Origin: Branchiostoma floridae
Taxonomy: Eukaryota > Chordata > Leptocardii > Amphioxiformes > Branchiostomatidae
NCBI RefSeq assembly: GCF_000003815.2
Contig: NC_049982.1
Location: 191,209 to 255,208, forward strand
Reading direction: 5' to 3'
Length of the DNA: 64,000 bases
This document shows, piece after piece, positions 340 to 62,189 of the stretch. The stretch's first letter is position 1, and each line of letters opens with the position of its first letter. Position numbers and translations under genes: made by a program. Under the pieces are notes generated by a model, which was not told the origin of the DNA, searched no databases, and saw nothing but the letters and a program-made list of their open reading frames with translations.

Positions 340-3300
340 CTTGACATAGTTTGCATTGATATATGTAGTAAGAAGGTCATTGTCCACTTCTGGGAGAACC
401 ACTCTGGAGTGGGCATCTAGAAAGGTTGTAAGATAAATCTGATGAAAACTCTAAACTATATTCTGTTCAATACTCAGATGGTACTGTTCACCTTTATTTT
501 CTTAAGGACGGGACCAGGAAGAATGTGGAAAGATGATGCATCGCTTTCTTTGAGTCAATCATTTTTCTTATATTCGCCTAATACAAAGGAAAGAATTTGA
601 AACCGGCAATTGAACAGTATAGTGATTTGAGTTTGAAGAAATCCTAGTGTTGCGCTGAAAGCTCTCAGTGAAGGGACAAGTAGTATGAGATCATTGGAGC
701 AATAGCCATGGAAGACTTACTTGGCAGGATAGTCTTGTATCTGTTCTTGGTCCCACACCCTGGAATCTCCACCTGCTCAGGGTGGTTCATGGGGATCTCC
801 TGCAGACAGGACGGAAGGAGAAATCATCAAAAACTTTGTCAGTGAAATACTTTTTTCTCCCAGGTTGTCAATGCAGGGCTCGAAATTCATTTTGGGGATT
901 AGGTGCACTGGTGCACCCAACCTAGAAAATTGGGTGCACCAAAAGTTTTTTGGGTGCACCACATAAAACAAAATAAAAATATCACACAGTTTTGGGGCAT
1001 TGAAAAGATTGATGAAAACAAATTCTGACTTCAAATTCTTAAACAAGTACTATGACAGGCATTTTATTAACTTTTTAACACATAGATATCAAGAATATGG
1101 TGTTCACTAGTATATTGACATCTTTACATACATAAGCCTATGAAAAGCACCCTGTGCACCCACAGAAAAAAATTGGGTGCACAGCTCCAATTTTGGGTGC
1201 ACCTGGGTGCACATGCACCCAGTATTTCGAGCCCTGCAATGCAACAACCTGAGTCAAAAGCCATGCTGCGCCATCAGCATTTCAGGTTGCCCCAATTCCA
1301 TTGGAATCCTTATTACTTTCTTTTAAATCAGCTACTTATCCATCTATTTTTCCTATTACATTTTTATGTTTGTCTTATCAAGAAATAAAATCAATACTTA
1401 AAGCTTAATAAATGCATATTAAGATGGGGGAAACCAGTGTTCCAACTTCAAAATTGCAGGTTGCTCTATGCACAACCTGGGTTTAAAATCAAGTCTATGC
1501 ACCAAGCAAAATGTAGTAACCGTTGCATTTGCAGCTGTGCAAGTGGGTGTTTCAAGCACTGCCTTAATTGTTTCCTAGCTGCAAATGTAAATAGACTGGA
1601 CAAATCATCATAAGCAATCATGTACATTGTATGAGAGAGCATAAAATGCATTCATGAATCTGATTTTGTACGTAGTAGTACATGTGCAGATGCTTTTTAC
1701 AATCTGCTATACTAAGCTGTGAGCAAATTTGAATGCAGCTTAGTTGTACACCTTTGGTACCCTACTGCCTCTTGATCTCAATAAACATTGATTGACTGAA
1801 ATATAGTCAATACCCAGGGCTCGAAATACCACCTGCATATGCAAGTTAGTGCAGGTAAAATTGGAGCTGTGCAGGTATTTCTGGTGTCTACCTGCACCTA
1901 ACTTGCACAGGTCCATGTAAAGGGTTTAGTACATAAATGTCCTGTGATGTGGATTGTTATTAGCTGCATTGACTTTTACCACCTATAAAGTATAAAAGAA
2001 AAAATAGCAATGGTTCCTGAAAAATTCTAGTATGATCTATACTTCCTAAATTCAGATTGTTGCAGGTAAAGTTTGTTTGGTGCAGGTAATTTGCAATATT
2101 ACTTGCACCTGAGTGCAGGTATGCAGAAAAAAGTATTTCAAGCCCTGCATTGCCTGAACTGCCTGAACTGTCAGCTAAGGCCTTGACATTAAAAAGGCTT
2201 CCTAAAAAGAACCCCACACACAGAGACTTGGCATTAAAGCATGCTTCCTAAAAAGAACCCCCCACACAGAGACTTGGCATTAAACATGCTTCCTAAAAAG
2301 AACCCCCCACACAGAGACTTGGCATTAAACATGCTTCCTAAAAAGAACCCCCCACACAGAGACTTGGCATTAAACGTGCTTCTTTACCTACGTAGAACCG
2401 CCCATAAAGAAACTTGACATTTAACATTCTTAAGCAGCCACCCACACACCCATACAGAGCCTTGACATTAAACGTACTTCTTCACATGACAAGAACCCCC
2501 CGTACAGAGCTTTGACATTAAACATTAGCTTCTGCACATACCAGGAAACCCCATACAGAGCCTTGACATTAAACAGGCTTCTGCACCCGCACAGAACCCC
2601 CCATACAGAGCTTTGATATTAAACAAGCTTCTGCACATACCAAGAACCCCCATACAGAGCTTTGACATTAAACATTAGCTTCTGTACATACCAAGAACTC
2701 CCCACACAGAGCCTTGGCATTAAGAATGCTTCTGTACCCACCCAGAACTCCCCATACAGAGCCACGACATTAAACAGGCTTCTGTACCCACCAAGAACTC
2801 CCCATACAGAGCCTTGGCAGTAAAAATGCTTCTGTACCCACCCAGAACTCCCCATACAGAGCCTTAGCGTTGAGGATGGACTGTCTCAGCTCTGCCCGTG
2901 TCATCTTCCTGGTCCCTGACTGGAGCAGCTCATCAACAATACTGGGGTGGGAAAGAAACATACAATGTACATCTATGTTTTCATCATGGAAATCTATTTT
3001 ACAATGCCCCCTTTAGATCTGCAAAAGGCAACTATAAATGCATTAATCAGATTACGTACATTTCTGATTCTTGAGATTGAAGGTTCTTGAATTTGAATCT
3101 TTTCAGGCCATATATTGAGATTGACTTTCCTTTTATGAATTGAACGAACAATACTTGGTTTCTTTAATTTTTTGAACGATGAAAAAAGGGATTAGAAATG
3201 GTAAAACAACAGGCATTTATACAACTTTTACTAAAAATCTGAAGAGACAGAATTTGACATAAATTGCAGTATATTTCGAAGGGGTTTAAAGAAAATCTGT

Positions 3301-6300
3301 GAATCTAAACTCCACCCACCTCTCCTTCGGTGGCGTGCCACATTTGACAGAGTCTGCAGACAGTGGAGGCATCGGCAAGTCAATGGACAGGGACACGTTG
3401 GAGCCCCTCCTGGAAAAAATGTGGTGAAAAAACAATGTCATCTCAAATGCAATTGAAAAAAAAAATATCTAAAATTCAAGGATTCATTGCTTAAGTACCC
3501 AATTGAAACATATGCTCACAAAACCATTTCACACACTCAATATCCATTAAAAAAAATATCAGAACAATCTTGATTCAAAATTTTACTCAACACCTGCAAA
3601 TAACAGTTACTGTACAGCTCTAGGCAGGGGAGAAAACAAACAAACGTCACACAAACAAACAAACACCTCACCTCTCCTGTAGTCCCTTAGGTTTCCCTGC
3701 CTTGGGAGACCCTCTGTACGCTGGTGAGGGGGAGGGGCTTGCCGAGATGGACGAAGAAGGCGTCAACTTTGGGCTGTCCGGCTGGATGACCTTGGTTGTC
3801 TTGACAACAGGCTTGACCCCCGGGTAGACGCACATCTGGTCCAGGTCGGGTTGTCCCTTCTTGGTCGGCTTGTTTCTCTTTCCGTAAAAGTACACCTGCG
3901 AATGATTTGGCATAGAGGTTTTGGTGTTTGCTCATAATGTTATACTGGGAAGAATATATTTAGGTACTTTATCCTTTTGTTTTTTATGCAGTTTTGTTTG
4001 CTTGTTTGAACTTTATTTCATTCATGAAAAGTTAAAATCAGCCACTGTTCATTGAGGTCATGAGGGAGGTAACTAAAGGTACATCAAGTGCTAATAAATC
4101 TATTAAAAACATATAAACTGCCCACAGAAATCATTGATGGCACTACAACTTCTAAGAAATGCACTTGTTCCAAAAGATCAATTTATGCATCCATGTTCAA
4201 ACTGGGTTAAGGGTTGACAAACGGGTGACGACCTTTGTTACCATGGAAACTCACCATGGTGACGACGATGCATGCCAACACTGCTGCTGCCGCGGCAACC
4301 ATGAAGGGCAGGTAGTTGCCTTCCCACAATCCCCGGTGGTAGCTGGAGCGAAGGTAGGAATTCTGGAGAAAAAAAAAAGAAGGTCGTCAAGGTAGAAATG
4401 GTCACTTTGAGTTTGATTTTGCTTTCTATTGTTGAGAGTACAACTTCTACTAGAGTTCAACTGTAGGTTTGTTGAACATTTCCTTGTAATATTTAAAATT
4501 ACTCTCTGCAACAAGAGCTATTTTCCACTCTACAGCATGTCCAGAACATGAGACATCAAAAAAGGAAACTTCCTCATTTTGCAGCTACATTGTACGATTC
4601 AAAGTACAGTCAAAATTTTTTGCAGGAAATTGATGCAGAGATGTCAAACATATAATTCAGTCAACATAGCCTTAGAGAATAAACCTGTCCACATATTCCT
4701 GCTTCAAAATAGTGAATATTAGATGAAATGAAATGAAATGAATTCTCATACAAATATTCAAGCAATAGCATAACTGGAAGGATACCATTACCTGTGGTAG
4801 AATGGACTCGACTACAGGCAGGGCAATCGCCCCCAAGTATCCTTCAGTCTCATGAAATCAAGATGACACGACTGGACAATTCAGACTTTGTACGGGGCAA
4901 TCGCCCCCACAAGTCATTATTCGCAGGACTTGAGCGTCTTGAAAAGTTACATTCTAATCCAACATGGCTTGATTTTCATACAATTTTGCACTGCGTTTTC
5001 TGATTATCAAGTAAACTAAAAGGGAATAAAATGGATTTTCCCTAATTATTTTGGATTCTGTTTATATATATAAAATGGCTTTCCTTACCTGTGGCAGAAT
5101 GGACTCGACTTGCAGGTCGGACAGATAGAAGCTGAGCAGGTCTACATCCAGCAGTGCAATAATGTCAGTAGCAGAAAGGGGGCGCTGGTCCTCATCTGTC
5201 ATCCACATCTTGATGGCATGGTTGCCAGTCTGACCAATCAGAGTAAACAGTATGTTAGGGATGATTCAATGATACTTCAAGATTAGGGGTGGGTACCGGT
5301 GCAAAAACATTTTTCTTGTTGGACCGGTCCAAAAAAACTGGACCTGACAAAAATCAGTCGACCGGATTTTGGACAAATTAGAAAATGAACAATAATATAA
5401 ATAATAACAAGAGGGAAGTATGGCAGAGTTGATAAACATTTTTACCAAGTTTCTATATATTAATCAAATTTAGTCTAAGTTTAATTAACAGATACATTAG
5501 TGTTATTTATATTAAGATAGCATTTTAAAATGCCAGTAGAAGTCAGATTCAAAAAAGCAAAATGGACCAATGTTTTGTGTGTCCATTCACAACTTTTCAG
5601 ACAATAAGGTCCTAGTCTGGAACTGGACCATACCTGTACCTGAATTTTCTCTACCGGTACCCTCATCTATTCTAGAGGTATCAAAAGGGAAATAACTAGA
5701 AAGGCAACAGTTGGGAGCAAATAAAAATGTTAACAAATGTATCTTCACAAGCCTAACAAACTATTGCTTTGTTTAATCTTACTCAAAGGTATTCATTGCT
5801 TATGATGACCAGCCCTTCAGCTCTCTCCTAGTTACCAGTAGCTACATTATGTGATTGAGCACTATTGAGTGTCTGACACACCTCCAGTTATCATGGTGAC
5901 AGGTCATTGACCTTATTTGTGTAGAGAAGGTAAAGAAGAGGAAGAAACAGTGCAGAAACAATGTGTTTTCCTTCTCTAAAAGTAGATACATTAACTTTGG
6001 CAAATAGCTCCAAAAATACATCTATACAAAAAATTATTTTGATAGATATATTATGCTAAATGACTGAGAAATAAATTAGGAGAATGAAATGAAACAGAAA
6101 ACACAACATTCCTTTCCCGTAGGCCTTGTCATCTAATGTGACAACAGTGGAAAGCAACTGTAACAAGATTCAACAATGAAACAACATGGTATTTACTTTC
6201 ATTGGTATACTATATTTTGTCTAAAAAAAGAATAATTTATAATTTCTGACCCTAATTTTTTCAGAACTGAAACAGGAAACACAACATTTGTTTCCTAGGC

Positions 6301-9300
6301 CTTACCATCTAATTTGACAACAGTCACAGATTCAACAATGAAACAACATGGTATTTACTGATTGGCATACTGTATTTTGTCTACAAAAACACAATAATCC
6401 CTGCCTACTGACCCTCATGTTTTCAGGACTGAAACAGGAAACAGAACATTTCTTCCCAAGGCCTCACTATCTAATGTGAGAACAGTGGAAAGCAACTGTA
6501 ACAAGAGTCACAGATTCAACAATGAAACAACGTAACTATTTATTCTTATTGGTATACTGTATTTTGTCTAAAAATAACAAAACACAATAATTCCTACCTA
6601 TTGACCCTAATTCTTTCAGAAATGAAACAGGAAACACAGCATTCTTTTCCTTAGACCTTAAAAAAAACAACATATTATTTACCTTCATTGGTATACTGTA
6701 TTCTGTCTAAGACAAAATAATTCCTGCCTACTGACTCTAATTTTTTCAGGACTGAAACATGAAACACAACATTTGTCCCCAAGGCCTCACCATCTAATGT
6801 AATAACAGTGGAAAGCCATAGTAACAACAGTCACAGATTCAGCACTAAGGCAAGATCCTGGATTGTAAAACTCAAATTCTACTCCCTGCCCCATCTTGTA
6901 AGCAGTATTTTTTTTTTTGAGAAAGCAGGTGATATAGTATATACCATGTAATATATAGAATACAACAAAGGGTATTCCTTCTCGCCCGAAGTACTTTATT
7001 TGCATCATGCGAACTCAAGAAAACTCCAGTTTATCGCCCAAAAAAGAGCAAAAGATGTGACATCAACTGGACATCAACAACTTTGTCAATTTGAACAAAT
7101 TTGTTAAAGAGCTGGGCAAAGGAATCTAACAGTGGTGCACTCAGGCAATTTCGAATTGTTCAAATCAAACTATGGATCCCCGTACTGTACTGTAAAACAT
7201 GGACCGGTGGGAACACCGACATTGAACATAAGTACAGACCAGGTATGATGTAAATGACTATATACAGCTCAATGTATGCGTTGAACACCTTTTGCCACGT
7301 GAAAGATTGGAGACAGATTATAGCCTTAAGGGCCTCCCACCATGGCCTATTTTACTATTAAAAGGATTTCTCACAATAAAGCACAACCAAAATACCTGGT
7401 ACTCAGATACACTTAATTATGTATTGAAGTTAAAACTCCAAATTTATGAGTGAGAACAGCATTGATGTAGTAACTGCCTTTCACCAGGACGAAAATCTAA
7501 AACATAGATTATACTTGTAAGGAATAAATAAATAAATAAAAAATACTTGGAAGAAGAGAATGTTGTCTTTGATACTGTTACAGATGTCTCATAATAATGT
7601 TACAGATGTCTCATAATAAAGGAAAACCAAAATACCCAGTACTCACTTGTACCTGTATTGTAATCTTCCAACCTCTAGCTTAGAAGATGTGAACACCTTT
7701 CACGATCACCAGGTAGAAAATTTGAGAAAGAAATCAAAACAACAAGGACCTTAAAAATGTGGTCTGGGTACAAAACACTGTACCAGATATAGTATGTCTC
7801 AAAGGTACTCACAAAACCTGTATTGTAATCTTCCAACCTCTAGCTTAATAGATGAACATCTTTCACCAGGTATAATATTTGAAAAACAAACCACAGCAAG
7901 ATTAGGACCTCCAATGTGATCTGGGTAAATGTTACAGGTATTAGAATATGTCTCAAGGTACTCACATAACCTGTATTGTAATCTTCCAACCTCTAGGCAA
8001 GAACAGTTCGGAAGATGATGTACACACCTTCACACCTTTCATCAGGTAGAAGATTTGAGAAAGACATCATAGCAACAAGGACCTTAAAAATGAGGCCTGG
8101 GTACAAAACACTGTGCCAGATATTACAATATGCATCTAAAGGTACTCACATAGCCAGTATTGTAATCTTCGAACCTCTTACAGAGACCAGCTGCCTGGAT
8201 GTGAACAGATGTATCCAGGTGGAAGATCTAAGACAGAAACCAGAGCAAGAAGGACCTCTAAGGCGATCTGGGTAAATGTTACAGGTATTAGAATATGCAT
8301 CTAAAGGTACTCACATAGCCAGTATTGTAATCTTCATACCTCTTACAGAGAACAGCTGCCTGGATGTGAACAGATGTAACCAGGTGGAAGATCTAAGACA
8401 GAGATTACGGCGTGAAAGGCCTCCCCATGTGGTCGTTGATAAGCCAAATTCCTGCTCGCCACCAAATCTCAGCCAGGCAACAAAATACTGAATGAACGGG
8501 ATCGTGTGAAGCGGCGGGGGTGTCCGCAAACTAGTTGTAGAATTAATTAACTGCCTGTATATCTTATGACACTCATTATCATATATGATCATCATGATAT
8601 GAGAAACAGGACAATGTTGTCTGAAGAAGTGTGGCCCAGGACTGATTTTAAGGACAAAAAGAGGAATGTTTTATGTGTTTTCATCGATGCGAGACAGAAA
8701 ACACCCCTCGACATGAGTGGACCGGTCTGGTAATTCAGCACAGGAAGTGATGCTGGTGTGTGGGCGGTGGGCAGTCATGGAGGACAGGTTTCAAATTACA
8801 GTCAGGGTCCGTTCTAATGCAGTACCTTGTTTCTAAATGACTTAATATAGGACAGGTTTCAAATTACAGTCAGGGTGATTCTAAACTACAGCTTTGCTTC
8901 TATTTGGCAAGGTAATATAGGTTTTAAATTACAGCAAGGGCAGTGCCTTGTTTCAGTAACCCAGTCACATAGCAAAAACAATCCTCTCCATTGACTCTGA
9001 TTTGATTTGATTTATCACATGTTGTATAAAAAAATACAGCCAGGACTACTATACCCAACTAGTGGAAGGCTGTCACAAAAGGCTATCCCTGGTGGCTAAG
9101 CCATGTACAATAACATACAAGTGAATACAAGGCATATATGTACATGTAGGCGTTTACAGAGCACAAGGAATTACCTGTATATACCATTATCTTTTTACAT
9201 AGATTACACAAAGCAGTGAGTCATTTCAGATGAATCACCCAAGCCTGCGATATTGTTGACTAGGGGTGTGTACTGTACCAGTACAAAACCATTTTTTGTT

Positions 9301-12300
9301 GTTGGACTGATCCAGAAAAACTGGCCCTGAAAAAATCAGAGGACTGGATGTTGGACAGATTATACCAACAGGCATTCACATGATTTGGCACTTACAGGCC
9401 AAAAAAAAAGTAATGTAAGCGAAGAAGATAATCATTTCTACCAAGTTTCTACAGTCAAACTTGGTCTAAAAAAGAGACAATTAGTGTTGTTTACATGAAA
9501 ATAGGATTTCTAAACACCAATGGACGTCGGATACTCCACCTAACAGAATCCTTTGCTAGCAAAATGGACCATTGTATTGAGTATGATATGTTCACAGATA
9601 CATAGGTCCAGGTTTAGGTCCAGACCCGATCCTCTGGACTTGGACCATATCTGTACCTGAATTTTCTGTGCCCACCCCTCGACCATTCGAGCCCATAACA
9701 CCGAGGAAGCCACACGGCAAAACATGTTTGTTGTGTGTCGGTTCGATTAAAGTTCCTAAACGGGGAACATGCGGCCCCTGCGTCTTTTCTGAAGATGTGG
9801 CGTAAGTGTGAACGGTTGGCTTGAGGTTGTCTGTCTCCATATATTTTCTGTACCCACCCCTGTTGTTGACATAAAGCTATACGTATTTTGCCAGAACCGG
9901 GGTCCATCGACGTGCTGGTTAGGTTTAATGTAATCCTGAGGCTGACAGGACTCCGGAAGTACCCGGGCATCCCGCAGGACCTGGGCAGACATTAAAGCTG
10001 TCAGACGCAGCTCAGGTTACCGTGGGTGAACACTGGGCAGTAGCAATCCAACTATGGGTGTAACGCCAAGCTGGGAACAACACTTGTCTATTGAGACCAT
10101 TTATGGTGCTCTACCACAGGTGTCTCACAGACTCAGACAGAGTCGGACACAGTTAATGCTGGACACTGTCACTCACATATAAAAGCTGTCAGAAACGTCT
10201 CAGGTTACCGTGGGTGAACGCTGGGCAGTATCAATACAACTACAAGTTTACTATCCAGATAAATAAGTTTTTAAGCACAGGGACTCATATAAAGTAATTT
10301 GTAATTTCTCTCTGAACGTCCTTCAGCACCAGGGTCAGTTATGGTAATTTTGGTTGAATTTCACTTAGCACTAGGGATAGCTATTATAGCAATTTGCGTT
10401 AAGAATCATTTAGCTACATGAACAAATATTGCAATTTCCAATTCAAAGTAAAATCAGCAATTCAGCAATCTCTATTTGAAGGTCACTTAGCACCAAGGAC
10501 AGATGAAACAATTTTCTACATTTGATTTTCGGTAATTCAGCCATGGGAACACAATTGAATTGTTAATCTCTATTTGAATGTCATTCAGCACCAGGGACAG
10601 AGGCACAAATTCCCAAATCAAAGATAATTAACACAAGTGATAGTGACATCAATGTCAAACTGAATACAATATGTCATCTAATTTATGTTCTAGACAGCAA
10701 CTGCACATTCTGATTAAAACAAATGTCTACAGTAGCTAGTTTGTTATTAGTGCTTCACTTTCGTATATTGTGTCAGCTTGTTAACCTGAAACCCAAAGCA
10801 AAACATCCATGGGCTTTGCAACCTCAGACTCAATACTACATCCTTCTAACTAATGATAAAATTTCTTTAATGTGCACTGAATGACTACGAGCCTGTAGTT
10901 CAAAACTAACAATAATCCATGTGCCTAATACTAACCCTATCATCTATCAAGACACAACTATTGCGCTTGTATAAATCGTTTGTCACTAAAGCTAACAACA
11001 ATACCCTCAAGGACCAAAACTCAGTTGGTGAGACAGTGTGACCTCGGGCCAAGTTCAATGTCCTTTGGTAACTTTGGACAGTTTTTGACAATGATCAATT
11101 TACTGTAATGTGTCCCAAGGATGTGCACTAATCTAGTTAATCTACAAGCAGATCCACGGTGGTGTAATATAGTATCAAAGCCTGTTTGACTCCCTTTGGC
11201 TGGCTATACTCCTTGGCCAGCTTTGATACTATCTTATGGCACCGTAGGATCTGCTTGGAGATTGTAAGCTAGTTAACTTGGAGTAGTCTGTGTAACACAA
11301 ACTCCGCTGTCCAGGGCTGTAACTGGCCCCTCCCTGCAGATGTTTGCCGGGCTGCTATAAGCGAGATTTAATCAGGCTAAACTTGGAGCAGATAACAAAA
11401 CCTCCCATCCTACAACACACTATTGATCACAGTGAATTAGTCTTGCTTGGCACAATGTCCTCCAGTGACACCTTAACATTGACTACACGATTCAGAAGAT
11501 GTCATACATCTAAGAAATCTTCGAGGTCTTAACCTTGAATTCACAAGAACATCCACCAAGACACAACTAATCAGGCTTTAGTTGTACAACCTTTTCTGAG
11601 AACAACGACCTTAAATAACCGCTTAACCTTGAATAAACGAAAGAAAGATGTCACACATTTAAGAAATCTTCGAAGACACACAATTGATCATGCTAAGACA
11701 ACCTTCGTCTGGGCACAATCATCAGTGCCCTCCTTCTGGACTGAAAGAAGACATCTAACATTTAAGAAAACTTTTATGTCTTATCCTGGAGTTCACAAGA
11801 ATACCTCCCATTCTCCAAGACACGATTGATTAGGCTAAGACAACCTCCGTCTGAGCACAACGTCCTCCAATAACATCTCAACCTTGGCTACTGGAAGAAT
11901 AATTGTCTAACAGCTAAGAAACCTTCAAAGTAAAACCTTCAAAGTCTTCTAGAATTCATTAGATCATCCAGAAAGACCTTCCAACACACTCCAATAACAT
12001 CTTTGACTAAACGAAGACGTCATTCATCTAAGAAATTCTTCAAGACACAATTAATGAGGCTTAGACAACCTCCGTCTGAGCACAACGTCCTCCAATAACA
12101 TCTTAACCTTGGCTACTGGAAGAATAATTGTCTAACAGCTAAGAAACCTTCAAAGTCTTCTAGAATTCATGAGAACATCCACAAGGACATTCCAACACAC
12201 TCTAATAACATCTTTGACTAAACGAAGATGTCATTCATCTAAGAAATTCTTCAAGACACAATTAATGAGGCTTAGACAACCTCCGTCTGAGCACAACGTC

Positions 12301-15300
12301 CTCCAATAACACCTTAACCTTGACTACAGGAAGGCACCTTACAATCTAAGAAACCTTCACAATGTCTTAAGTACTGACGTAAGCTGTGGGTGGAGGAAGC
12401 CAAGCAGACAAAATAACGATGTCGCTAAGGATGCAGGAAGCGAGAGACTCATTGCCAGCGGTAATTAAACGTGGGCGTGTTTCGCTACTTGTTACCGCAA
12501 TAATGTCAAAGCACCCACATGCATCTACATGTACTTCGAAAAAAAGGAAGTATGACAACAATAAATGGCCTTGCAATTCAGAGTGGTCCAGGTTAAATTT
12601 GTCTGGTGCAGATAACTTTCAATGCCAACTGCACCAGTGCAGGTATGCAGATAAACGTATTTCGAGCCCTGGTGTAGAAAGTGGGAGACTCATTGCCAGC
12701 GGTAATTAAGTGTGGGCGTGTTTTGTTACTCCTTGATCGCAATAATGTAAAAACACCTACATGTACTATCTACTACGCAAAAAAAAGGAAGCGTGATAGC
12801 ATTACTACATAGTACAGCCTTGCAAAGTAGAATCGGATATACTAAATAGGAATGAAGAATGCAAGGTTGAAGAGTCTTTCTAGGACACTGGATTGTAATG
12901 TCTACGATAAGTAGAGACTGAAAGAGAAATCACATTATTACAATTAAAACAATTTAAAACACTTACTCAATCATCATCATCAGTGAGTATATAAACCTGT
13001 ATCTGAATTTTCTGTACTGGTACCCAGAGTTCTAGCTAGTGCATTTTAGCGTAGTGGACCCACGGTGGTCAAAAAGGCCCTCAAAAATCCTCACTCGCAA
13101 ATCATGCATATGGATGAGGAAATCAATGTCAATCATCCATTTCACTACTGGCAACATTTGCTGATTGGTTTACGCCGTTGTAGGCGGGGATTACATTTGT
13201 TTTTGGTCGCTCCAAGTGGAGCTATTTTTTTACGCGAACTTGCTCCTTTGATATGCGCGTCTTTTCTCCGCCCCCATTGTTCTCCACTTACCAAGTTAAC
13301 AATACCTGAGCTTTTCTGTCGGCCATTCTCACGCTGGAGCTCGGCATTGAAACCACCGTTTTAATTCTTTCTGAACTATATATTTGTCTATATATTACAC
13401 AACATGCTAAAACTAAACCTTAGGTGAGCAAAGATCGAAGGAGTTACCGTCACTCCCGGGTCACCGCTTGGGACGGAGCATTGGGCGTCGTTTACAGACA
13501 CAACCCGGAAAATTATCCGTGCCTTTTTTTACACACACACATACAAAAAGTTGAGTGATAGAAATTCAGTAATTTTTCAGCGAAGATGAGTATCTATATC
13601 TAGAACATGAAAGCTCACCATACTAGTATACTTAGACCCAAACGTAACGAACCCCTCGATATATTGCGTCTTTGACCAAAGTCCCGGCGTGTCTGTTCCT
13701 GTCCTGTATACACAACGACTCAATTTAAATAATTATAAGAAAATAATTGCAACCTAAGTTTTTTGATAAACGTGTTCTCTCAAATAACAAACTCCTTATA
13801 TTCTCGTCATTCTGTAAATGAACTAGGTCCATACCAGCGCTTGACGTGGCGAATGTATCGATATCCGTAATACGCTGGGCATTACATCACATGGTAAACT
13901 TCAAACTGGCGTCCTTTGCCCCGCAATTTTCTTTGTTTAAATTATACCTTATACTATAGAATGGGTTTGAAGTAGTAATAAAACGCATGGTAGCACGGAC
14001 GAAAGCATAGCAACCGCAACACCATGAAAATTCACCCAACTTACCGTGACCGTCACTGCCGGGCGCAGCTGCAAGATTCAGCGGGGGCGGCGTAGAGCCC
14101 GCCCGCCCGTATATAAACACAACCCGGCCTTTCCTACGGAAGTCTAATATTCTCTCCCTCTCTCTCTCACTCCACACGCACACAGTGTGACATACACACA
14201 CACAATTGAACGACAGGACACCAGTTTATTTTCTTGGTAAAGTGAAATTCATATTTTGAACATTTGCACGGAAGCTTACCGCACACGGAGAACGCAATGC
14301 ACACTGACCTCACGACAAAGCGCGTCTTCAAATCAAGATTCACGAACCGGCGTGTTTAGTCCTGTCCTACAAAATAACTAAAAAATGAAGAAAAAACTTC
14401 GTTCTCCACTATTTGTAGAAACAATTTTATATTCCCGTGAATTTTGTAACAGAATCTGCAGTTCGCAATTCACTAACCTTTGTAACATTACACACCCAAG
14501 CGTTTGATGTGCTATCGGCTTGCATACACTAAACGAAAAAACTAAACTTTTGGCGCCCTTGGTAGAAAAATGAAAACGGTTCATTGCTACAAAGAAAAAG
14601 ATTTAGACTTAACTATCAAAGAAGCACAGTAGTAAATCAAACTTTTGTGAAGTAGGGGTCAGATATGTAGTGTTGTTACCTGACAGCGGAACCGGATGAA
14701 ACCGGTTTTCTCTTTTGTTTACAAAGAGAAAGTCGAAAAGACGCCATTTTACTATTTGGAACCTCGTTCAAAATTTCTAAAATAATATTAACTATGGGAG
14801 AAAGTGCAGCTGCGAAAGTGCACTAAAGATCTTGTAGAATTAATGGTAGCTTCTTGCAGACACAACAAACTGTACAAATAATTTGCTACAGCCAATTCTC
14901 TCTCAAATTTCGCGCCGGGGACGACAACAATGGGGCCACGCCAGCTCATTTCCATATCACTGCCGTCCCAGGTAAGTTGTTGTAGTAAGAACGTACGGAG
15001 GCAAGAACAAACCGCTCTGATGTTCGCCGACAACCTAATTATAAGTCAAGAGCATAGCCATTCTTCCACGTGAAAATCTGAACAAAACGTACAATTCGTA
15101 TTTTGAGCCATATCTCCCTGTAGTTAACACTTAAGCTGACCAAAAAAACTCCATCGTGAAGAAAAAACTATCGCCGCCATCTTGGAGAAAAATCAATCGA
15201 TTCTCTTCCATCGCTGTGGAACTATGGGACAAAACGTAGTGAAAATGTGACAAAATTAGCTAAAATGTCGTAGACACTTAAAACTGCATAAGGTGAAATA

Positions 15301-18300: not shown

Positions 18301-21300
18301 GCGAAGCCGGACTTTAGCCGCGCCGACAGAGACTGGTTGGCTGGAAGCTTGCTTGGATTGGAAACAGTCTGTGGGAAAAAAGTTACACTTTTACAAATTC
18401 TCTAATCTTTTGTGTTGTATACAATAAATTGAATAATTCCCAATGTTGTGTAATACCAAGCATGCAGGGCAACTGCCGCATGGCTAATAACTCCAACAAG
18501 TTCCTACTAGTACTTGTGTCCAGAGTTGGATGTTAAGCTTAAGTACTTGATCAAGTACATGTACATGTAGCTCAACACTACAGCAAGACATTAGCTGCTT
18601 GGTGGCTGGACACGAAATCTACCAGCACTTAAGGTGCTGTGTGACAAAGAACTCATGAGTACAAGGGTTACAGTTACTTTAGTTTTAACTCTTTGCTTAC
18701 ATGATACAGTGTTACACAGCTATGTGACATTTTGCTGGCAATATATAAGGCCAGGTAAGGTAATATATAATACTAAAATAAAGACTATCCACTTTTCAAC
18801 AAAAAGCAAACCTAACAAATCCAGCTTTGCAGTGGGGGTAAAGACGTGGGATTGGAAATGCACTTGTAGGTAAATGTGTTTTGCTTTGAAGTGATGGCTC
18901 AACCATGCTAGAAAAAGCCAAGATCCGGAGCTTTCAGCCTCCTAGAAAAAAAGTACTGTAATGCATTTAAGTTCGCGGGGATATAATTTCGTGTTAGCAG
19001 GAAAAAGGACTTTTCGCAGCGGTTTTAAGTTCGCCGTAATGCCATAGACTGCAGTCTAATACCACAATAGTAAAATGTTTGCCGTGAAGTGGTCATCGCA
19101 AAAAACGCGAACATTTCTGCATTTGAATTTTAAAGTAACAAAGAAGAGTAGTATACAGTGAGACCAAGGAGGTTTTATCCTTGATAAAACCTCCTTGAGC
19201 TAACATCATGAATAATGTTCCCTGGAGTGAAATTCACCACGCGAGGGCCGGCACTCATTTGTTCCGGGGGACCTCCCAGACACCTATGCACCCTCCCACG
19301 CACGCACGCCTACTGCCTCATTATGCACCAGTAGGCTACCAGCGTACTGTATAATCTCCAAGCAGATCCTACAGTAGCATAAGATAGAGAAAGCTGGCAG
19401 AGGAGTGAAGCTGGCTTAGGAGTGTGTTTTGCTACCAGGGACCTGCCTCAACTGAAACAGGGCGGAGCATTTCTATTCAACAATGGTGTTGCTGCCCCTC
19501 CCTGTTGCCAAGTACTAATGATTTTACGAGCGACTTATATATAATAACACTGGGACAAAGTCAGTGACCAGCACATGTCCCAGTTGGAAGTTAGCACCAA
19601 ACAGGAATGAGGGCAATTAGCACCTACACTGCAAGCACAGTTTGATTGGGAAACAATCAGATGTTAATAGCCATTGTTCTAGCCAACTGGGGACAGATTC
19701 TACATGGCAAATGTATACCTCTTGGCTGCACTCCTTGGACAGTTTGGTGCTAATTTTTATGCCATTGTAGGATCTGCTTGGAGATTACGTACTGTAGTAC
19801 AAGGCTGCAAACTATGCATGGGTGGGTACCAGTACAGAAAATTCAGGTCCAGGTACGGTCCAGGTACGGTCCAGGTCCAGATGATCAGGTCCTGGTCTGA
19901 ACCTGGATCTAACTGTTTGTGAATTATAATGGCGATACTCAAACAATGGTCCATTTTGCTTCAAACTTTGAATCAAAGGAATCTGTTGGTGTAGTTACTC
20001 CTATCTTCACATAAACATTGCTAACTGCCTCTGTTAAATTAGACTTGTTTGACGGTAGAAACTTCAATTGATAAAAAATGACTGTTCTTTAGATACTTTG
20101 CTCTATTTCCTTGGACAAAAAGCCTCAAAACACATGCACACCTGCCACCATAGTGCGTGTATAATCAAATTTACAGTATGCAAGAGAAATGGCAACAACA
20201 AGAAATGGTACCAGGCATAACCTTTTTTGCATCCTGTTTACATAATGCTTCTTGGATCAATACAGAAAATGAGCCAATCCATTTTTGTAAAGTTTGAACT
20301 TTGCTTCATTCTGTAAAGATGTTTATTTTGTATTTATTAAGTTTCTGATGTAGTTTTCTATGACCGCGCATTCTCTTAATGTATATTTAATTGTGCAAAA
20401 TATGTATAACAAAAACAAACTCTGTTATGACAGGCCAGAGTCACTGGATATCCGAGAAACTCTGAATATTCAGAATCTTTGAACATGTATGAATTATGCA
20501 AAAAGAAAAATAGGGAAAAAAGAAAAGAACGTATAATTATGATCCGCGTTGTTCAGTCAAAAATTTGGTTAGTCCAATTTATTTGTGCTGAAAACCACTG
20601 TTTAACTCTTTCCAGAACGACTTCTAATACCAACACAGATGAACTTTCAAGCTAATGTAGTCCACAGTTTGCTTCTATAATGTTATGACAAGCCAGAGTG
20701 GATTGTTAATTACTTGACAAAGACTGGTGTTGTTCAGTCAAAAATGTTTTCCCTATTTTTCTTTTCATTACTTGATGAAGACTGGCGTTGTGCAGTCAAA
20801 TATTTGGTTAGTCCAATTTTTTGTGTTGAAAATCACAGTACTGTTTAACTCTTTCCAAAATGACTTCTACCAACACAGATGAACTTCCAAGCTAATGTAG
20901 TCTGCAGTTTGCTTCTATACTGTTATGACAAGCTAGAGTCTTGGTTAGTCCAATTTTTTGCATTGAAAATCACAGTTTAGCTCTTCCAGAATGACTTCTA
21001 CCAATACAGATGAGCTTCCAAGCTAATAGTCTGCAGTTTGCTTCTATACTGTTATGACAAGCCGGAGTGGATTGCCCGTTCTTGACAAAGACAGGTGTTG
21101 TTCTGAGAATCTGAGTCAAAAAATGTCTTGCCTATTTTTCTTTTCATCACTTGATGAAGACTGGCGTTGTTCAGTCAAAAATTTGGTTAATAGCCATTTT
21201 TTGTTGTTGAAAATCACAGTTTAACTTTTTCCCGGAATGACTTCTACCGACACAGATGAACTTCCAAGCTAATGTAGTTGGTAGCTAACTCTGTAATCTT

Positions 21301-24300
21301 ATGACAAGCCAGAGTCTCTGGATAATTTGGTTAGTCCAATTTTTTTGTGTTGAAAATCACAGTTTAACACTTTCCAGAATGACTTTTACCAAGCTGAACA
21401 GTCACAGATGAACTTCCGAGCTAATGTAGTTCGCAGTTTGCCTCTATACTATTATGACATGTCTCTGGATAATATTCCGCCCACACACTGCGTAAAAAAA
21501 AACGCCACCGGGGGCCGTGAGTCGTGACCGTCTGGGCCGCCCACGCGCTCACGTTACCTCGCATGCTGCTAGCTGCACAGATCTAACAGTACCATAACCA
21601 ATGAATATGGGTGTGTGCCTGTGCCTAACAGTTCACAGTGTACTTAGTAATTCGTAGTTTCCAACACTAGCATAGAGTGGTATTTGTTGCCGTCAACTAC
21701 AGTAGGAGCATGCATCATGACATTACATGTACACTAGAATGTACAATGTCATGTACATCCACTTCAATGACCACTTGATACCCATAGACTATTAAAAAAA
21801 ATACCCAGTGGATAAAGTTGAACTAGTGTTACTTGTTCCTGTAACTGTACAATGTACTGTCTTGTACCTGTATTATTCTGTACATGCATATACAATAGAG
21901 TACCATGACCAATCAGGGCTCAAAATACTGGGTGCATGTGCACCCTGGTGCACCTAAAATTGGAGCTGTGCATCCAAAATTCTGTGGGTGCACCAGTGCA
22001 CACAAACGTTCTTGCAGATTTACACACGCATATGTAAAGACATCAGAATCTGATCTCTTTAGTGTAACTTTATGCACCATACTCTCAATATGGAATTGCT
22101 GGAAAGATAATAGAATGTCTGTCATAGTAGTCTTGTTTAAGAATTTGAAGTTGGACTTTGGTTTCATCGAAAATTTTGCCACTCCAAAACTTTTTTTTAA
22201 AAAGGTTGGGTGAAACCAGCACACCTAATCTCCCAAAATAAATATCGAGCCCTGCCTTGCACTGCTGCTAGCTGCACAGATCAGTAACAATGAATGAATG
22301 AATGAATGAATGAATGAATTTATTGCTCAACAATCGCACAGGGTACAATGTATGGCAAATAATAACAACTAATAGCTATACAGACAGTAGTACTAAGAGG
22401 CTACATACAAAACAACAACAAAACATTATCGATAATAGTACAGTTATGTATGATTAATCTGATCTCGCATTTGGAATACATTACAAAGAAACTGGCCTAC
22501 GTAAACGGATATATGAGTTGAACATGAGAGCAATACATGGAAAATATTGCTTTCTGCACCAGCGAGAGAGATGTGTGTTTTGGTTCTAATATTCTTAAAC
22601 AATGTTTCTCTCTCTTTACTGTAGGTGGGACATTTCATAACAAAGTGGAATTCATCTTCTATATTTTCATGACATGTAGGACACAGTCTCTGAGTGGCTG
22701 GTGTGTTACGGTGACGACCTTTTTCAATTTCTAAGCAATGTGCACTTATTCATGACCAATGAATATGGGTGTGTACCGATCCTTGGCCTCCTGTACCAAC
22801 TGTGTAAGTACTATACTTGCTAGTCTGTAATAGTAATTTGTACTTTCCTACATGTAGCACTATATAATATATAGTGTTAATGACATGCTAGACCCTATAT
22901 GTTGATTTAATCACACCTATAGATATCCATATATGTGTGTTTAGTTGTACTGTAAGTAGTTGTTATACATGTAGACCTTACGAAAGTCGCTGTACTTTTG
23001 TCGTGTCAATAAAGATTGTTTTATAATAGAGTGGAATATACATTCAACTACAATTAAGGAGCACCCTCATAGCAAAAATATGCAAAATAACTGCTCTGCT
23101 ATTAGAAAGAATACCCAAACCAAATGATTAGCCTACTCCATTGCATCTACTATTATGTTAGCCCTTATTCAATTGTTATGCTACCTCGGTTGTTAATAGC
23201 TTCATCCTATACCTCTATTTTGTACTTTGTGAAATAGTTGTTGCCATACATTGTACCGCGAACAATTGTCGTGCAATAAAGTTCTTCATATGTAATGTTA
23301 CATCCATTTGATATCCGTAAACACAGTTTATGAAAATAACAAAGGTCACTCCGCAGATATTTAGGTGAAGTTAGAGAGAGAGACTCAGAGAGCTGGTTTA
23401 TTTAAACACACAATTTCAGGTACAAGATGATAGTTCGAAGACTAAATTGCCTCATACAATGTTCACAAAGGACATGGTGTTTCTGTAACTGTACTTGTAC
23501 TTGAACCTGTATTTTTCTGTACAATGACTGAATGAGTTGTTAAAAGGTTCTGATCCAAAATACCTGAATGTCTGTAAACCTCAGTAACTTGGGATTATTC
23601 CGATGTGCACCTGAAAATGTACCTGTACTCTGGGCTTTGTCTAAAGAGGATTACAGCATCACAAGCTGTGGCCACATGCCCTGCCCATGCACCCCCTTAC
23701 CCTGGGGAGCAGATACTCTGGCAAGCATAAAAATTCTGAATAGACATTATGATGACGGGCATAATCTTCGTGATCACCTGTGACCTGTCTGACAGTACTT
23801 TTGTCCCTTGGGAAGCCTTACAATGTCCCATTTTAACTGTCTCATCTTAACTGTTATTGTCCACACCATGGTAAGGAGGACCCCCCTTCTATTCCACCCC
23901 CCTGCTTGGTTGCTCCGCATCCTTGCAATGCCTCCCCTTTGCAATTTTTTCCTAAAGAAAATACCACAGTGTACTTACATTTAACCTACTTATGGTATCT
24001 TGTCAGGTACAAGAAATGATATGTAGAATTGTTTAGGTACAGATCCATGTCTAACAACGAGGGCTGCGCAAATCACAGCTCCTAATTACAAATACAGTAG
24101 AAGCCAGTTAATTGCACAACGGATAACTGCACACTTCTGTTAATTGCACGTTATCCCAAAGTTCCGTAATGATGCGGTCCAGCTGAATAACTTCGCTTTG
24201 TTGCACCATCCGGATAATTGCACAAAATGTACTGGCAAATGGGGAGTGCAATTAAACGGCTTCTACTGTACATGATTCATGTACTAAATGGTATGATTTA

Positions 24301-35559: not shown

Positions 35560-38500
35560 GAATGAAGACCTTTATTGTACAATTTTGCCCAACCGGGCTA
35601 AGTACAGGTCACAACGAATCAGGATATATACATACATAAAAGTGTCACAAATCTAGTCTAACACAAAAGTTCGGCTTCTTCTCGCTTCTTGGTAATAGTG
35701 AAAATGTAGGACTGTATGGGTTTCGCTATTGTCGGTTTGTCAAAACGCATGAGAAATATAAACTTGTCAGTGCTACTCATGTGTCTAAAATGAGGGAATC
35801 TACTTTCTATATAACTAAATAGAGTATTTCTATCATTCGCATACATATCGCAATCAACAGTGAAGTGCACTTCATCTTCTACCATGTTTGAGGTACAAAA
35901 TTGGCAGATTCTTTGTTCTAGAGGAGTGCGGCTGTGCCTTCCCGATTCAATTCGCAGTCGGTGGCAACTGATTCTTAGTTTGGCAATGGTAGTTCTATGC
36001 CGAATGTTTGTGATTTTCAAATACTGCTCTTCATTGTATGTGGATTTCAGTAGTCTGTACGTTCGGAGTTTGTTTTTCGCACGTAAACCTTTATTATCAT
36101 TATGAATGTTGGTTAGAAAATTCTGGAAATAAATATCATTCAGTCGTTGGTGGATTGCAGAAATTAGGTGGGATATGTTTGGATCTGTTGACTTACGGGC
36201 TTGCCAAACAAAAGGGTAACCACACTCCTCCAAAGTTTTGCGAACACCAGATGCCCAACATTTGGTACCTGATGAATCTAGATTAAGCTGACATAAGAGA
36301 GCGTCTGCCTGCAGACTCTCAGCTGGCACATTCTGTTGAATTCTAATGAAATATTTGATGGCGTTTAGGGAGGCTTCCAGTTGGATAGGAAACCTCCCTA
36401 ATTCAGCGCGTACAGCAAGGTTAGATGCAGTTTTCGGAACATTAAGTGAGTGTTTACAAAATTTCAAGTGCACTGTTTCAATAGGACAAGATATAGGACT
36501 TTTGAATGAGCTCCAAATTTCAGATCCATATAACAAAATAGGTTTAACACAAGTGTCGAAGAGTTTGTTTTTAACTGATAATGGTGCGTCTGCTTTGTCT
36601 AATGATTGTCTAATTCCAAATAGAGCTTTCAATCCCTTGCTGTATAAGTATTTGCTGTTGGCTTTGAATGTGCCAGCTGAGGATACAACAATACCTAGAT
36701 AACAATAAGATGTTACTATTTCTAAAGCATTATTATCAAACAAAAAACTACAATCTTTCGGTAAGCGGCCTCCCTTTGTAAATACAATAACCTTTGTCTT
36801 TTTCAGGTTAACCTTCAGCTTCCATGATTTACAATATTGTTCTAGTCTAAGTAGGGAGGACTGTAAGCCTTGTTGGGATTCTGAGAAGATAACCAAGTCA
36901 TCGGCATATAAAAGACATGGCACTTTCATGTTGTACAGAATAGGAGAATTGCTAGAAGAGTTATCAAATTCAGATACTATATCACTAATGAACAAATTAA
37001 ACAATGTTGGACTCAGATTACAGCCTTGTCGAACCCCGCAGTTAGTTACAAATGTTTCGGTAAGACGATTGTTGGTTTTGATACAGTTATTAGTTTTGGA
37101 ATACATGTCTTTTATGGTCGATAGGAAGTTTCCTCCTATTCCAAGATTATTTAATTTGAACAGGAGACCCTCTCGCCAAACAGAGTCGAAAGCTTTGCTA
37201 AAATCAACAAAGCATGCGTAAAGACGTGAATTTTGACTGAGATATTTGCTTACTAAAGTAGTTAATACGAAAAGATTATCAGACGTTCTATAGTTTTTTC
37301 TAAAACCGGCCTGTTGAGGTTTAAAAAGGCTGTTCTGTTCCGCATAGTTCACAAGACGAGTATTCAAAATGGACGAGAATAATTTCCCCAGACAACTCAT
37401 AATGGAGATACCGCGGTAGTTGTCTGGGACTGAGGTATCACCTGACTTGTGTATTGGTACTATATGACTAAGTGACCATTCTTTGGGAAAGTATCCGTTT
37501 TGCAAACATGAATTGAAGAGATGAAGCAGTGTTTTTTGTAGGATTGGTTTACCACACTTCAGCATTTCATTTGTAATCATATCACTACCACTAGATTTGC
37601 TGTTTTTTAGTTTGGAGATGGCTATATCCAGTTCCTTAGCTGATATCAGAGAGTCCAAAAAGGAATTCTCTGTAGGAGGGAGAGGGGAGGGAAAATGAGT
37701 TTGAACATTTGTTGAGTTATTAGTTGAAGTTTCTGAGTCACTGATGGAAGATTTGTCTATTCTATTAAAATGTTTTAACCACGCCTCATCCGTTATTTGA
37801 GAACTTGGCTCTTGTGTTTTCTCTGACTTCAGTTTCTTCAATAAGTTCCAAAACGCGTTTGGGTTTTCTTCCCTCAAAGAGGACAGTTGGTTAACGATTT
37901 GTTGATGAAAGTCTCGTTTCTTTTTTTTTAATAGTTTTCTATATTCTTTTTTCCTTTTAAAAAACCTTCCTCTCACGTCTGAGTTCTGTGGATTTTTCTC
38001 GAGTAAAGATGCCAGATTTTTTAGCTCCCGTTTCATTTCACAACAGCTTTTGTCAAACCATTTCTTGTTTTTTATTTTCCTTGGCCGTTTTCTATTAATC
38101 TTTAAACACAATGATTTGTAACCGACATCTCTTAATACTGAGCTGAGATCCGAGACGTAGTTTTCAATGTCGTGGGCTGCGCTTTTGGTTCCTCTAAGTG
38201 AAAGGTTATTAAGTCTATCTATAATGTGTGGTTGGCTGAGGGATTGAAAAAACTTTTGTGCAGAGGTTTCATTCCAATGGAATCTTTTAGAGAGAGGTTT
38301 GCTGTTTCCACTTATCTGTTTCTCTTTGGCAGGGTGATTTGAGGATTTTGTACGTAAGACAACAGATAACATGCAGTGATCAGAGAATGTGGTTAGGGGG
38401 TTAACTCGAAAAAATAAAATGTGTTCTAGAAGCGGTTGGTTGCATATTACATAATCAACAGTGCTGCTACCGTTTGGCTGATGACACGTGAATTTTCCTT

Positions 38501-38757
38501 GTAGATCACCGGCTATTCTGCCGTTAAGAATTTTAAGATTTCCTTGAATACATAAATCAGCCACAAATCTGCCAAACTTGTTGGGGGGAGCTTGATCCAT
38601 GTGTTGTCTATCTAATGTAATGTTTGAGAAGTTATTCGGGTGATTATCACAGAAAGTGTATTGCTGTTTAACATGACCGCATTTCCAGAAGTATGCACAA
38701 ATAACGTGGGGTATGACAAAAGGAAGTACTCCTTGTATACGGCAAGCCTGACATTTT
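35560..38757 (-). mobile_element. Non-LTR retrotransposon (LINE), 5'-truncated, 980-codon open frame
   Basis: Encodes the C-terminal part of an APE-type endonuclease (VDYVICNQPLL, FSDHCMLSVVL), then a reverse transcriptase. The RT carries FVDFSKAFDSVWREGL, GVRQGCNLSPTLFNLFISD and the catalytic YADDLVIFS at 36897-36908 (about residue 564). The C-terminus has a Cys/His motif, RICQFCTSNMVEDEVHF. From the first internal ATG the frame spans 38600-35658. It continues open upstream to about 38757, where a stop precedes it, marking the 5' truncation. The 3' end has GACCTTTATTGTACAATTTT with a (TTCA)n-type tail at 35560-35575, as in the fragments at 22285 and 60160. The intact frame suggests a young copy. 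Clade (CR1, L2 or Jockey-like) is not settled by eye. Confidence 0.9.
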
Positions 38758-38820
38758 TGTTATAAAATTGCTCTTATTTTTGAGCACATGCCTTACAAAC
38801 ACGGATATTAAGGCACGGGC

Positions 38821-38828: not shown

Positions 38829-38875
38829 GACGAACGTAACACATCGCAAGCATTCTGACTGTGAACTCCGCAACA

Positions 38876-40133
38876 ATGGCATCTGTGCGAGTGCAACTGA
38901 TCATTGTGGCGGTTATGGTTTCCCCCCTCTGTGGTGGTCCCGTTGACAGCCAGAGCAGTGGCGACCGTGGCAGACCTCCTTGCCCATCGCACACGTCGGC
39001 CCTACCCGGCGCCATCAACGACTGGGACAGGACCTTTACGTTCCAGTGTCCGGCTGGTCAGGCCGTCTCCGTCGTGAAGAGCCGTCACTGCGACACGACC
39101 GAGGATCGGGTGTGGCGGTTCGTGTGCAAGGCGGTCCCCAACCTTGGTGACTTCACTGACCACTACTGGACGCCTTGGGTGAACGAGTTTGACGGCGTCA
39201 TGAACTACGCTTGCCCTTCCGGAAGAGTCGTCACGGGGTTTCGCAGCGAGCACTCCAACTATCACGAGGATCGACGCTGGAAAGTAGGTTTTACTGACAA
39301 CACTTACCTTCCTTGCCATCTTTTCATCTTTTTTTAATGTTCCAATTTGCCTCTTATACTTAATCATGTCTGACGAAAAAGTTTTTTGAAATGAATTCAT
39401 GACATCCTCTTCGTGTCTTCAACAGATCCGATGCTCCCGTAAGGCCGGCATGACCACCAGAAACCACTACCAGAGCCTGTACGCAAACAGCTGGGACGGC
39501 GACATGAACTACAACGTTCCCACCAACTTCTACATTCGGGGGATGCATGGATACCACGACAATGAGAAAGAGTAAGTGTATTTAAAATTGTTGTTATGCT
39601 CTTCGCTTCCAAACGTTTAACATCAATTGAGAAGGTTGTCCTCATCTGCAGGCTCGCATGTGGTTGTGTAGTCCAATCTAATTTTAAATGTTGTAAATGC
39701 ATCAATGTTTTAAAGTTGATTTTGTGACTGATGACGCATTTCATGTGTATATACATGCCAAATCATTCAGGAATAAAGCTGAATCTGAATCTGAATCAAT
39801 CCTTGATCTACACATCCTGCTGCTGCATGGTCATATGAAGCCCTGTGTAGATAGTGGCTAGTGAGTTACAGCTTGTAGCGTTTCTTGGGAGCTCCTCTGT
39901 TTGATGTTTGCTTGTTTGTTCACGTTTGCCCTTGCACAGCTCTCCGTAGAAGATAGCTTTGGGCATCCTGGAGTCTTCGATTCGTGACAGGTGGCCAGCC
40001 CAGCGGAGCTCCTATAACTTTCTTTCGCATTCATAAGGGGACTCTTTGTGTGCACTGGTTATTTTCAAGAGTTTTTTATGTCCTCTCCAGGGATCGGCTC
40101 TACGGTTTTGACCTCTGCAGAGTCCAGCTGTAG
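38876..40133 (+). CDS. DPT: Dermatopontin-family secreted matrix protein, three exons, 198 residues
   Basis: Extracellular-matrix protein of the dermatopontin family, which binds matrix glycans and collagen partners in vertebrates (family knowledge). Exons 38876-39283, 39426-39571 and 40091-40133 join in phase. The signal peptide is about residues 1-20 (VQLIIVAVMVSPLCGG). Family features are visible: WDRTFTFQCPAGQAV, repeated DR-x-W-x-F-x-C motifs (EDRVWRFVC, EDRRWKIRC), GRVVTGFRSEHSN, FYIRGMHGYHDN, and a last exon reading EDRLYGFDLCRVQL then TAG, which matches the C-terminal DRQWKF-x-x-CR of the human protein. The last exon is only 43 bp and was placed by phase (GA plus G) and by that motif. 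Human dermatopontin has about 200 residues. The start follows a TATA box by 55 bp. Confidence 0.92.
39640..39800 (+). repeat. Retroelement-like 3' end with (TGAATC)n tail
   Basis: AATAAAGCTGAATCTGAATC ends a 3'UTR-like stretch in intron 2 of the dermatopontin gene. Inferred remnant of a retroelement. Confidence 0.4.
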
Positions 40134-61059: not shown

Positions 61060-62045
61060 TGACTCTACTCTTCGCCACATGTATACGTAAGGCAAGAATT
61101 GTGAGAAAAAACTGCGAACAGAAAACTTGTTAATGCAACCTTGCAAGACTGCCCTAAAACAAGCCCTAGGTTGAATCATGTTAGCCTATACCATTTACTT
61201 GTGCGCCTGTCTCTGTACTAATGACTTGCGACATATCTGACTGTATTGTTCGCTGTATGGAAGGAAAGAATTACAAGTGTATCAGAACAACCTAGGCGCT
61301 AGAAACTTGTTTGCATTACGACCCTATAGCTGAGTCAGACTCTTAGTGGAATCATTTAAACTTACATCTACGCCTCAGCATGTCCGTCTCTGTACCTCTG
61401 GCTTGCATATCTGACTGCATTGTTCGCTGCATGGAAGGCAAGAATTGTAAGAAAAACCTGCGCGCCAACGGTTTCTTATACATCTTTACAAGACTGCAAT
61501 AAGACAAGCTCTATCGCAGCTATATGTTGAGTCGTCTTAGCCTATATTATTTATTTGGGTGCCTGCCTCTGTACCCATGACTTGCAGCATATCTGACTGT
61601 ATTGTTCGCTGCATGGAAGGAAAGAATTGTAAGAACAACCGAGGCGCTGGAAATCTGTTAGCAATACGACCCAGCAGCTGAGCCAAACTCGAGGTTTGAA
61701 TCATTTTAGCTAACGCCAACGCCTTAGCATGTCCGTCTCTGTACAGGTCTATACCCCCTGTATATGACTTGCATATCTGACTGTATTGTTCGCTTCATGG
61801 AGGGAAAGATTTGTAAGAACAACCTAGGCGCTGGAGACTCGTTTACAACCTTGCAAGACTGCCCTGAGACAAGTTCTAGGTTGAATCATGTTAGCCTATA
61901 TCCTTTAGTTGTGCAAGGAGGTTCCTTGATTTGTGCGCCTGTCTTTCTGTAACCATGACTTGCAGCATATCTGACTGTATTGTTCGCTGCATGGAAGGAA
62001 AGAATTGTAAGAACAACCTAGGCGCTGGAGACTTGTTTATACAAT
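61060..62045 (+). repeat. Tandem array, about 175-190-bp units, with a Cys-bearing frame
   Basis: Five full units (near 61221, 61400, 61574, 61764, 61953) and partial ones. On the plus strand the shared core reads MTCSISDCIVRCMEGKNCKN then NLGAGD, with four cysteines in the best units; some units have lost one or two. The core is preceded by GACTTGCAG and contains AATT-GTAAGAAC, so it could also be seen as a small repeated exon with an acceptor and donor. Between cores lie CTTGCAAGACTGCCCT and TTGAATCATGTTAGCCTATA. Function unknown. Confidence 0.7.
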
Positions 62046-62189
62046 AGGCTGGGTAATTGTTGGAGGTACCATTCGGTGCCGGAGTTCAATTAGATTAAGT
62101 GGCGGCATAATTAAGGCACAATGGACCATAAATTTGTCGGGCCGAGTTTATTAGTTGCCCGAGCAGGGGTTACCTGGTAGGCGGTGAGG

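Follow-up and report, generated by a model that had tools for sequence, protein, structure and literature searches.

Duplications of intron-exon boundaries that resemble minisatellites have been described in amphioxus under the name “mirages” (PMC3087553, PMC3902484). The genes reported to host them are Adh3 and the globins BflGb6 and BflGb9 (PMC3087553), together with TnC and PGBD5 (PMC3902484). Many but not all of the repeats keep their splice signals, AG/GT (PMC3087553, PMC3902484). In the accessible parts of these two papers, data on Adh3 and RT-PCR of the globins suggest that mirages leave regular splicing undisturbed, and the same has been suggested for the TnC mirage (PMC3902484). Haplotypes of BflGb6 carry 6 and 3 units (PMC3087553), and the repeat numbers of PGBD5 differ between two lancelet sequence versions; in that gene an exon had been modelled from repeats, and the accessible text describes it as lacking EST or mRNA support (PMC3902484). 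The globin paper proposes that new introns can come from mirages and cites the Rogers model, under which introns are gained by AG/GT tandem duplication (PMC3087553). A minisatellite in the human gene IFI6 (6-16, G1P3) has been reported to provide repeat donors that are used in mRNA (Turri 1995, as cited in PMC4526556).

Here we describe an array of this type at an exon end of a KIM-type tyrosine phosphatase gene, found in a 64,000-nucleotide stretch of Branchiostoma floridae DNA that was analysed as a whole (the window). As far as the accessible parts of the earlier reports describe them, the amphioxus mirages share its main traits: tandem units straddle the boundary (here from 2868 in the exon and over the donor at 2842), splice signals are kept in many but not all units (GT in 8 of 14), the units have diverged, and turnover comes with local homogenisation, as likeness drops with distance and U11 equals U12. 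The 50-bp unit is inside the 10-72 bp reported for Adh3. Unlike the known mirages, the host is a KIM-type tyrosine phosphatase gene; the array has 14 units, against the 6 and 3 of the BflGb6 haplotypes, and its units go down to 63% identity with the exonic one, whereas BflGb6 repeats are reported to be 81-100% identical to each other. Like the minisatellite of IFI6, it provides an exon end with several splice donors, but the downstream units of IFI6 are reported to be used in mRNA, while the decoys of the phosphatase are predicted sites, and those tested stop the frame. The duplicated segment holds splice signals, as in the account of the Rogers model given in the globin paper, but the array copies the donor end of the intron, and the acceptor end has no detectable relation to the unit. 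The phosphatase array adds a new gene to the known mirage type, and such arrays have already been described in amphioxus. Among the papers listed by our searches, which covered few subscription papers, no title or opening of an abstract concerned a mirage in a phosphatase gene.

The phosphatase gene and its array

An initial annotation, made from the sequence alone, had placed the gene in the KIM-PTP family, and homology bears this out. Exons A to F (Table 1), when spliced in silico, give a single open frame of 202 codons. The top match of exons C to E is PTPRR (1jln, E 2.4e-20), with PTPN5 next and then PTPN7; among the nearest solved relatives, the 15 top-ranked of 57 matched sequences all belong to PTPRR, PTPN5 or PTPN7, and the Pfam match is PF00102 (1.6e-09). 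The join of exons A and B reads GLQERRGSNVSLSIDL, which by its look resembles a kinase interaction motif. The C/D junction is ungapped in all three alignments shown (two with PTPRR and one with PTPN5), and because of this ungapped homology we place the authentic donor at 2842 and the acceptor before 799, which gives an intron of about 2.04 kb.

Cut at common anchors, the array comprises 14 diverged units and a short degenerate stub on the minus strand. Ten of the units measure 48-52 bp (U1-U10) and four measure 45-46 bp (U11-U14), with U1 starting inside exon C and U14 finishing at 2187 in the next intron. Each is made of the last 27 nt or so of the exon, the donor, and then some 23 nt of intron. 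The initial annotation, which had described about 14 tandem 50-bp units starting in the exon and composed of the last coding bases, the donor and about 20 bp of intron, was accurate in these respects; its extent (2172-2941) was too wide, as the array proper covers about 2868-2187, and a length of 50 bp is too long for the four distal units. TRF reports a period of 50 with 13.5 copies at 2203-2865, along with overlapping rows with periods of 45, 90, 91, 101 and 151, and the repeat search returned a 56-nt family in 12 copies and a 14-nt family in 13 copies. The array is beyond chance: copies of the exon C donor junction score 112, and the best of 200 dinucleotide shuffles of the intron reaches 36. 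Two stretches elsewhere in the same intron, at about 1810-2145 and about 878-1240, have ends that are similar by eye (about GGGCTCGAAATAC ... TTTCGAGCCCTG, minus strand) and look like two relatives of one short inverted-repeat transposon.

Table 1. Positions in the window of the features described in the text. A slash marks the splice position; for a decoy donor the two coordinates are those of the G in GT and of the final exon-like base; scores are from the vertebrate matrix.
Feature	Position	Strand	Basis or remark
Exon A	3895-3672	minus	KIM-type tyrosine phosphatase gene
Exon B	3409-3320	minus	KIM-type tyrosine phosphatase gene
Exon C, 100 nt	2941-2842	minus	End ...AKALYGEFW, phase-0 donor; PTPRR/PTPN5 homology and open frame
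Exon D (EIPMNHPEQVEIPGCGTKNRYKTILP), acceptor partner of array donor	799-721	minus	Homology and open frame
Exon E	416-340	minus	KIM-type tyrosine phosphatase gene
Exon F	From 37 to window edge	minus	KIM-type tyrosine phosphatase gene
Unit U1: authentic exon end, donor TGG/GTGGGT (2842), 23 nt of intron	2868-2819	minus	Unit alignment and donor scoring
Units U2-U14, intronic; U10 ends at 2369; degenerate stub after U14	2818-2187	minus	TRF, repeat search, unit alignment
Units U11-U14, donor deleted by 5-nt loss, TTCTTTTTAG/G left	2368-2187	minus	Unit alignment, acceptor scoring
Decoy donor U2, TTG/GTGGGT	2791..2792	minus	Score 2.32, U1 pairing -9.8
Decoy donor U3, 9-mer identical to authentic	2741..2742	minus	Score 2.00, U1 pairing -11.0
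Decoy donor U4, TTG/GTATGT	2691..2692	minus	Score 2.03, U1 pairing -6.7
Decoy donor U5, TTG/GTATGT	2640..2641	minus	Score 2.03, U1 pairing -6.4
Decoy donor U7, CTG/GTATGT	2541..2542	minus	Score 3.65, highest in array; U1 pairing -6.4
Decoy donor U10, TAG/GTAAAG, 4 nt off homologous place	2387..2388	minus	Score 2.00, U1 pairing -6.7
First in-frame stop past exon C	2772-2770	minus	Met with 7 of 8 decoys; U2 decoy stops in exon D
Decayed copy of exon F acceptor junction, in preceding intron	156-114	minus	Junction-copy search
Further tandem arrays	6166-6486, 11933-12333, 61231-62039, 62201-63110		Viewed as sequence

Identity to the exonic unit falls along the array, with values from U2 to U14 of 90, 88, 81, 78, 78, 73, 68, 70, 72, 70, 70, 63 and 67%, and this fall is strongly related to distance without being strictly stepwise (Spearman -0.92 for U2-U14 and -0.93 for U2-U10). 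Units that lie nearer to one another are also more alike (Mantel r -0.46, 6/5000 permutations), including when U1-U10 are considered alone (r -0.38, 67/5000). The likeness within U1-U10 is 0.779 at offset 1, 0.796 at offset 2 and 0.798 at offset 3, and the slightly higher values at offsets 2 and 3 are as block duplication would give. As to the exclusion of boundary units from homogenisation that goes with mirages, the picture is mixed: the exonic unit, 90% identical to U2, does not look excluded, and the distal stub is degenerate. U1-U10 differ mutually by about 10% or more, and U11 and U12 are the only identical pair among the 14, which suggests that they are probably the product of the youngest duplication. 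Their identity and the distance-graded likeness of the units would be expected if small blocks had been copied by local unequal exchange or slippage. The 5-nt deletion common to U11-U14 would most simply have preceded the multiplication of those units.

Donor sites, reading frame and predicted folding

The GT at the homologous columns is kept in eight of the 14 units (U1-U5, U7, U9 and U10), and a donor score of at least 2.0 is found at the homologous place in six (U1-U5 and U7), with U10 having such a site 4 nt away, so that the initial estimate that about half of the units keep a donor consensus was a fair one. GT was lost by substitution in U6 and U8, and in U11-U14 by the one common 5-nt deletion, which also creates TTCTTTTTAGG. 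Scoring the donors with a 5' splice-site matrix had been proposed as a check on their competition, and the outcome depends on the measure. By our matrices, which for donors and acceptors alike are rounded vertebrate frequencies and not amphioxus ones, the authentic donor TGG/GTGGGT scores 2.00, the lowest of the gene's five (the others reach 4.90-7.19), and six array sites reach the same score or a higher one, 2.00-3.65 (2792, 2742, 2692, 2641, 2542 and 2388). Predicted U1 pairing, which for the five donors of the gene is -11.1, -11.0, -10.2, -9.5 and -5.6, ranks the authentic donor second (-11.0); only the U3 decoy ties with it, with the remaining five decoys lying between -9.8 and -6.4. Donors scoring at least 2.00 number seven per 700 bp in the array, the authentic one included, and 1.55 in the window. 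Mononucleotide shuffles of the array gave a mean of 3.4 such donors and a 99th percentile of 8, so the count of seven is by itself within the range of base composition, and the regular spacing of the donors follows from the repeats.

The initial annotation also held that the use of these donors would disturb the frame, and this proved correct: extension of exon C to the decoys led to a premature stop in all eight that we tested (the six main ones and the weaker sites at 2450 and 2392). Because of these stops, regular use of the decoys would cost the gene. Some leakage to the array donors is plausible, since the matrix places the authentic donor last of the five and six array sites level with it or above.

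We found no special RNA structure in the 770-nt array stretch (z -1.78; one of 20 shuffles as good), and no consistent hairpin across the 14 single-unit RNA folds. Two of these 14 had p<0.05 (U10, 0.010, and U4, 0.047), and their folds differ from each other; U2 had p 0.053, and with DNA parameters one unit of 14 (U6) was below 0.05. An imperfect 8-bp stem at the donors (GCTCTGTA with TACAGAAGC) was considered and rejected, as 149 of 500 shuffles did as well. On U1-U10 (10 of the 14 units), 93.8% of the cells of this stem pair, compared to 17.5-53.8% when it is slid, and one pair is changed on both sides, in U10.

Origin of the array and competing explanations

We believe that the array is a mirage of the amphioxus kind, a minisatellite that is neutral or almost so, and we put the probability of this reading at roughly 0.83. 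A 50-bp segment that by chance straddled the donor of an existing intron would have been duplicated in tandem. The copies would then have multiplied one to three units at a time, through replication slippage or local unequal exchange, and decayed through point mutation and small deletions. One deletion that removed the donor would then itself have been copied into the four units of 45-46 bp. The spliceosome would keep the donor at 2842, the intronic copies would leave with the intron, and splicing would be unaffected; continued use of the authentic donor is the most likely state of the gene.

An alternative is that the array acts as a splicing control, with the decoys competing with the donor at 2842 and the number of units setting the share of transcripts that undergo NMD, which would make it a length-variable dosage knob for the phosphatase. 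The two measures of donor strength point in opposite directions here, as the matrix makes the authentic donor the weakest among the five, with six array sites as high or higher, but U1 pairing makes it the second strongest, with only U3 equal to it in the array. The eight decoys tested all stop prematurely and upstream of further exon junctions, and minisatellite donors are reported to be used in human IFI6 (PMC4526556), which favours such a control; however, the amphioxus mirages, in the accessible parts of their reports, are suggested not to disturb splicing (PMC3087553, PMC3902484). The seven array donors of at least 2.0 are within the shuffle 99th percentile (8), donor copies have been lost in U6, U8 and U11-U14 as drift would give, and neither special RNA structure (770 nt, z -1.78) nor a consistent hairpin was seen. 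We therefore regard a splicing control as improbable, and a little more so the specific form of a length-variable rheostat, in which the six decoys and the copies of the exon tail would draw U1 off the authentic donor and unit number would set the NMD share. If such a rheostat did exist, individuals would differ in phosphatase dosage, and somatic instability of the array might make cells differ as well.

The initial annotation had also raised the possibility of a snapshot of intron or exon creation, with copies becoming exons or the intron itself born from the array, and we consider this very unlikely. The units do carry exon-like sequence and donors, and the globin paper proposes such a route (PMC3087553). 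The most distal units had been called acceptor-like, and the four of them do contain TTCTTTTTAGG, which scores 1.31 by the vertebrate acceptor matrix (one of the four was scored), slightly above two of the six real acceptors of the gene (1.27 and 1.23); but 664 of 7570 AG sites in the window reach this score, and no acceptor in the array exceeds 3. As there is no donor scoring at least 2 past these sites, in 2340-850, they cannot easily define an exon, and a cryptic exon from a distal acceptor to a later donor was rejected. If the intron had been created from the array, both of its ends would derive from the duplicated unit, but the array touches the donor end only and halts about 1.39 kb before the exon D acceptor. 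No copy of the exon D acceptor junction was detected in the intron, array included (score 24, with 39 of 200 shuffles as high), in a search that would miss a strongly decayed copy, and the protein junction is ungapped against PTPRR. With no detectable copy of the acceptor end and no exon defined distally, the array is best described as having copied a single end of an intron that was already there; the intron would be older than the array. Least credible of all is an assembly artefact, in which misassembly would have expanded a short repeat. The locus is represented by one sequence, and PGBD5 repeat numbers are reported to vary between lancelet versions (PMC3902484); yet only U11 and U12 are identical, there is no N in the stretch of sequence viewed, and the mutual differences of about 10% or more among U1-U10 indicate that most units are not one unit repeated by mistake.

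The phosphatase array is a long and clearly graded addition to the small number of minisatellites described at splice junctions. Since every decoy carries the donor together with the exon tail, it is also a natural test of donor choice among near-identical neighbours.

Local duplication in the window

For two of the 11 junctions of the gene, the donor of exon C and the acceptor of exon F, the neighbouring intron contains a copy of the junction sequence, in a test in which exons A and B began 2 and 1 bases off. With the exon F copy, the gene has two boundary duplications. This copy lies about 107 nt before the real junction, with TTTCAG/GGTTACGATATG against TCTCAG/GGTTATGACATG, and its score of 35 was reached in none of 200 dinucleotide shuffles (maximum 34), none of 466 window tiles and one of 5000 mononucleotide shuffles. 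As an acceptor, the copy scores 3.08 and the real site 6.07 by the vertebrate matrix. An adjacent copy was also found for 68 of 627 arbitrary segment sides at a score of at least 35, and for 45 of 627 at 60 or more, in a count that spans the whole window and has six of the 68 within the exon C array. Since local tandem copies are common in the window, two junctions of 11 need no splice-site targeting of duplication, and we do not claim it. Given this base rate, mirages may arise without special targeting: local tandem copies are plentiful in the window, and a fraction of them will fall on junctions.

The region covered by the window is rich in tandem duplication. It contains 46 direct-repeat families within 500 bp, with spacings mostly of 130-400 bp among the 20 listed, and diverged local tandem families are present at 6166-6853, 7633-8423, 11678-12367, 20546-21474 and 62164-63110. 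The array at 61231-62039 has a 75-nt stretch five times at a spacing of 174-194 bp; in some copies ISDCIVRCMEGKNCKNN can be read in one frame, with stop codons in between, and a piece typed by eye gave no Pfam match. A 1033-codon ORF at 35658-38759 on the minus strand has a reverse transcriptase domain (PF00078, 3.3e-41) and by its look is probably a LINE-type retroelement. On the plus strand, a Dermatopontin-like frame is found at 38840-39337 (PF14704, 4.3e-26), with a similar stretch at 39465-39512.
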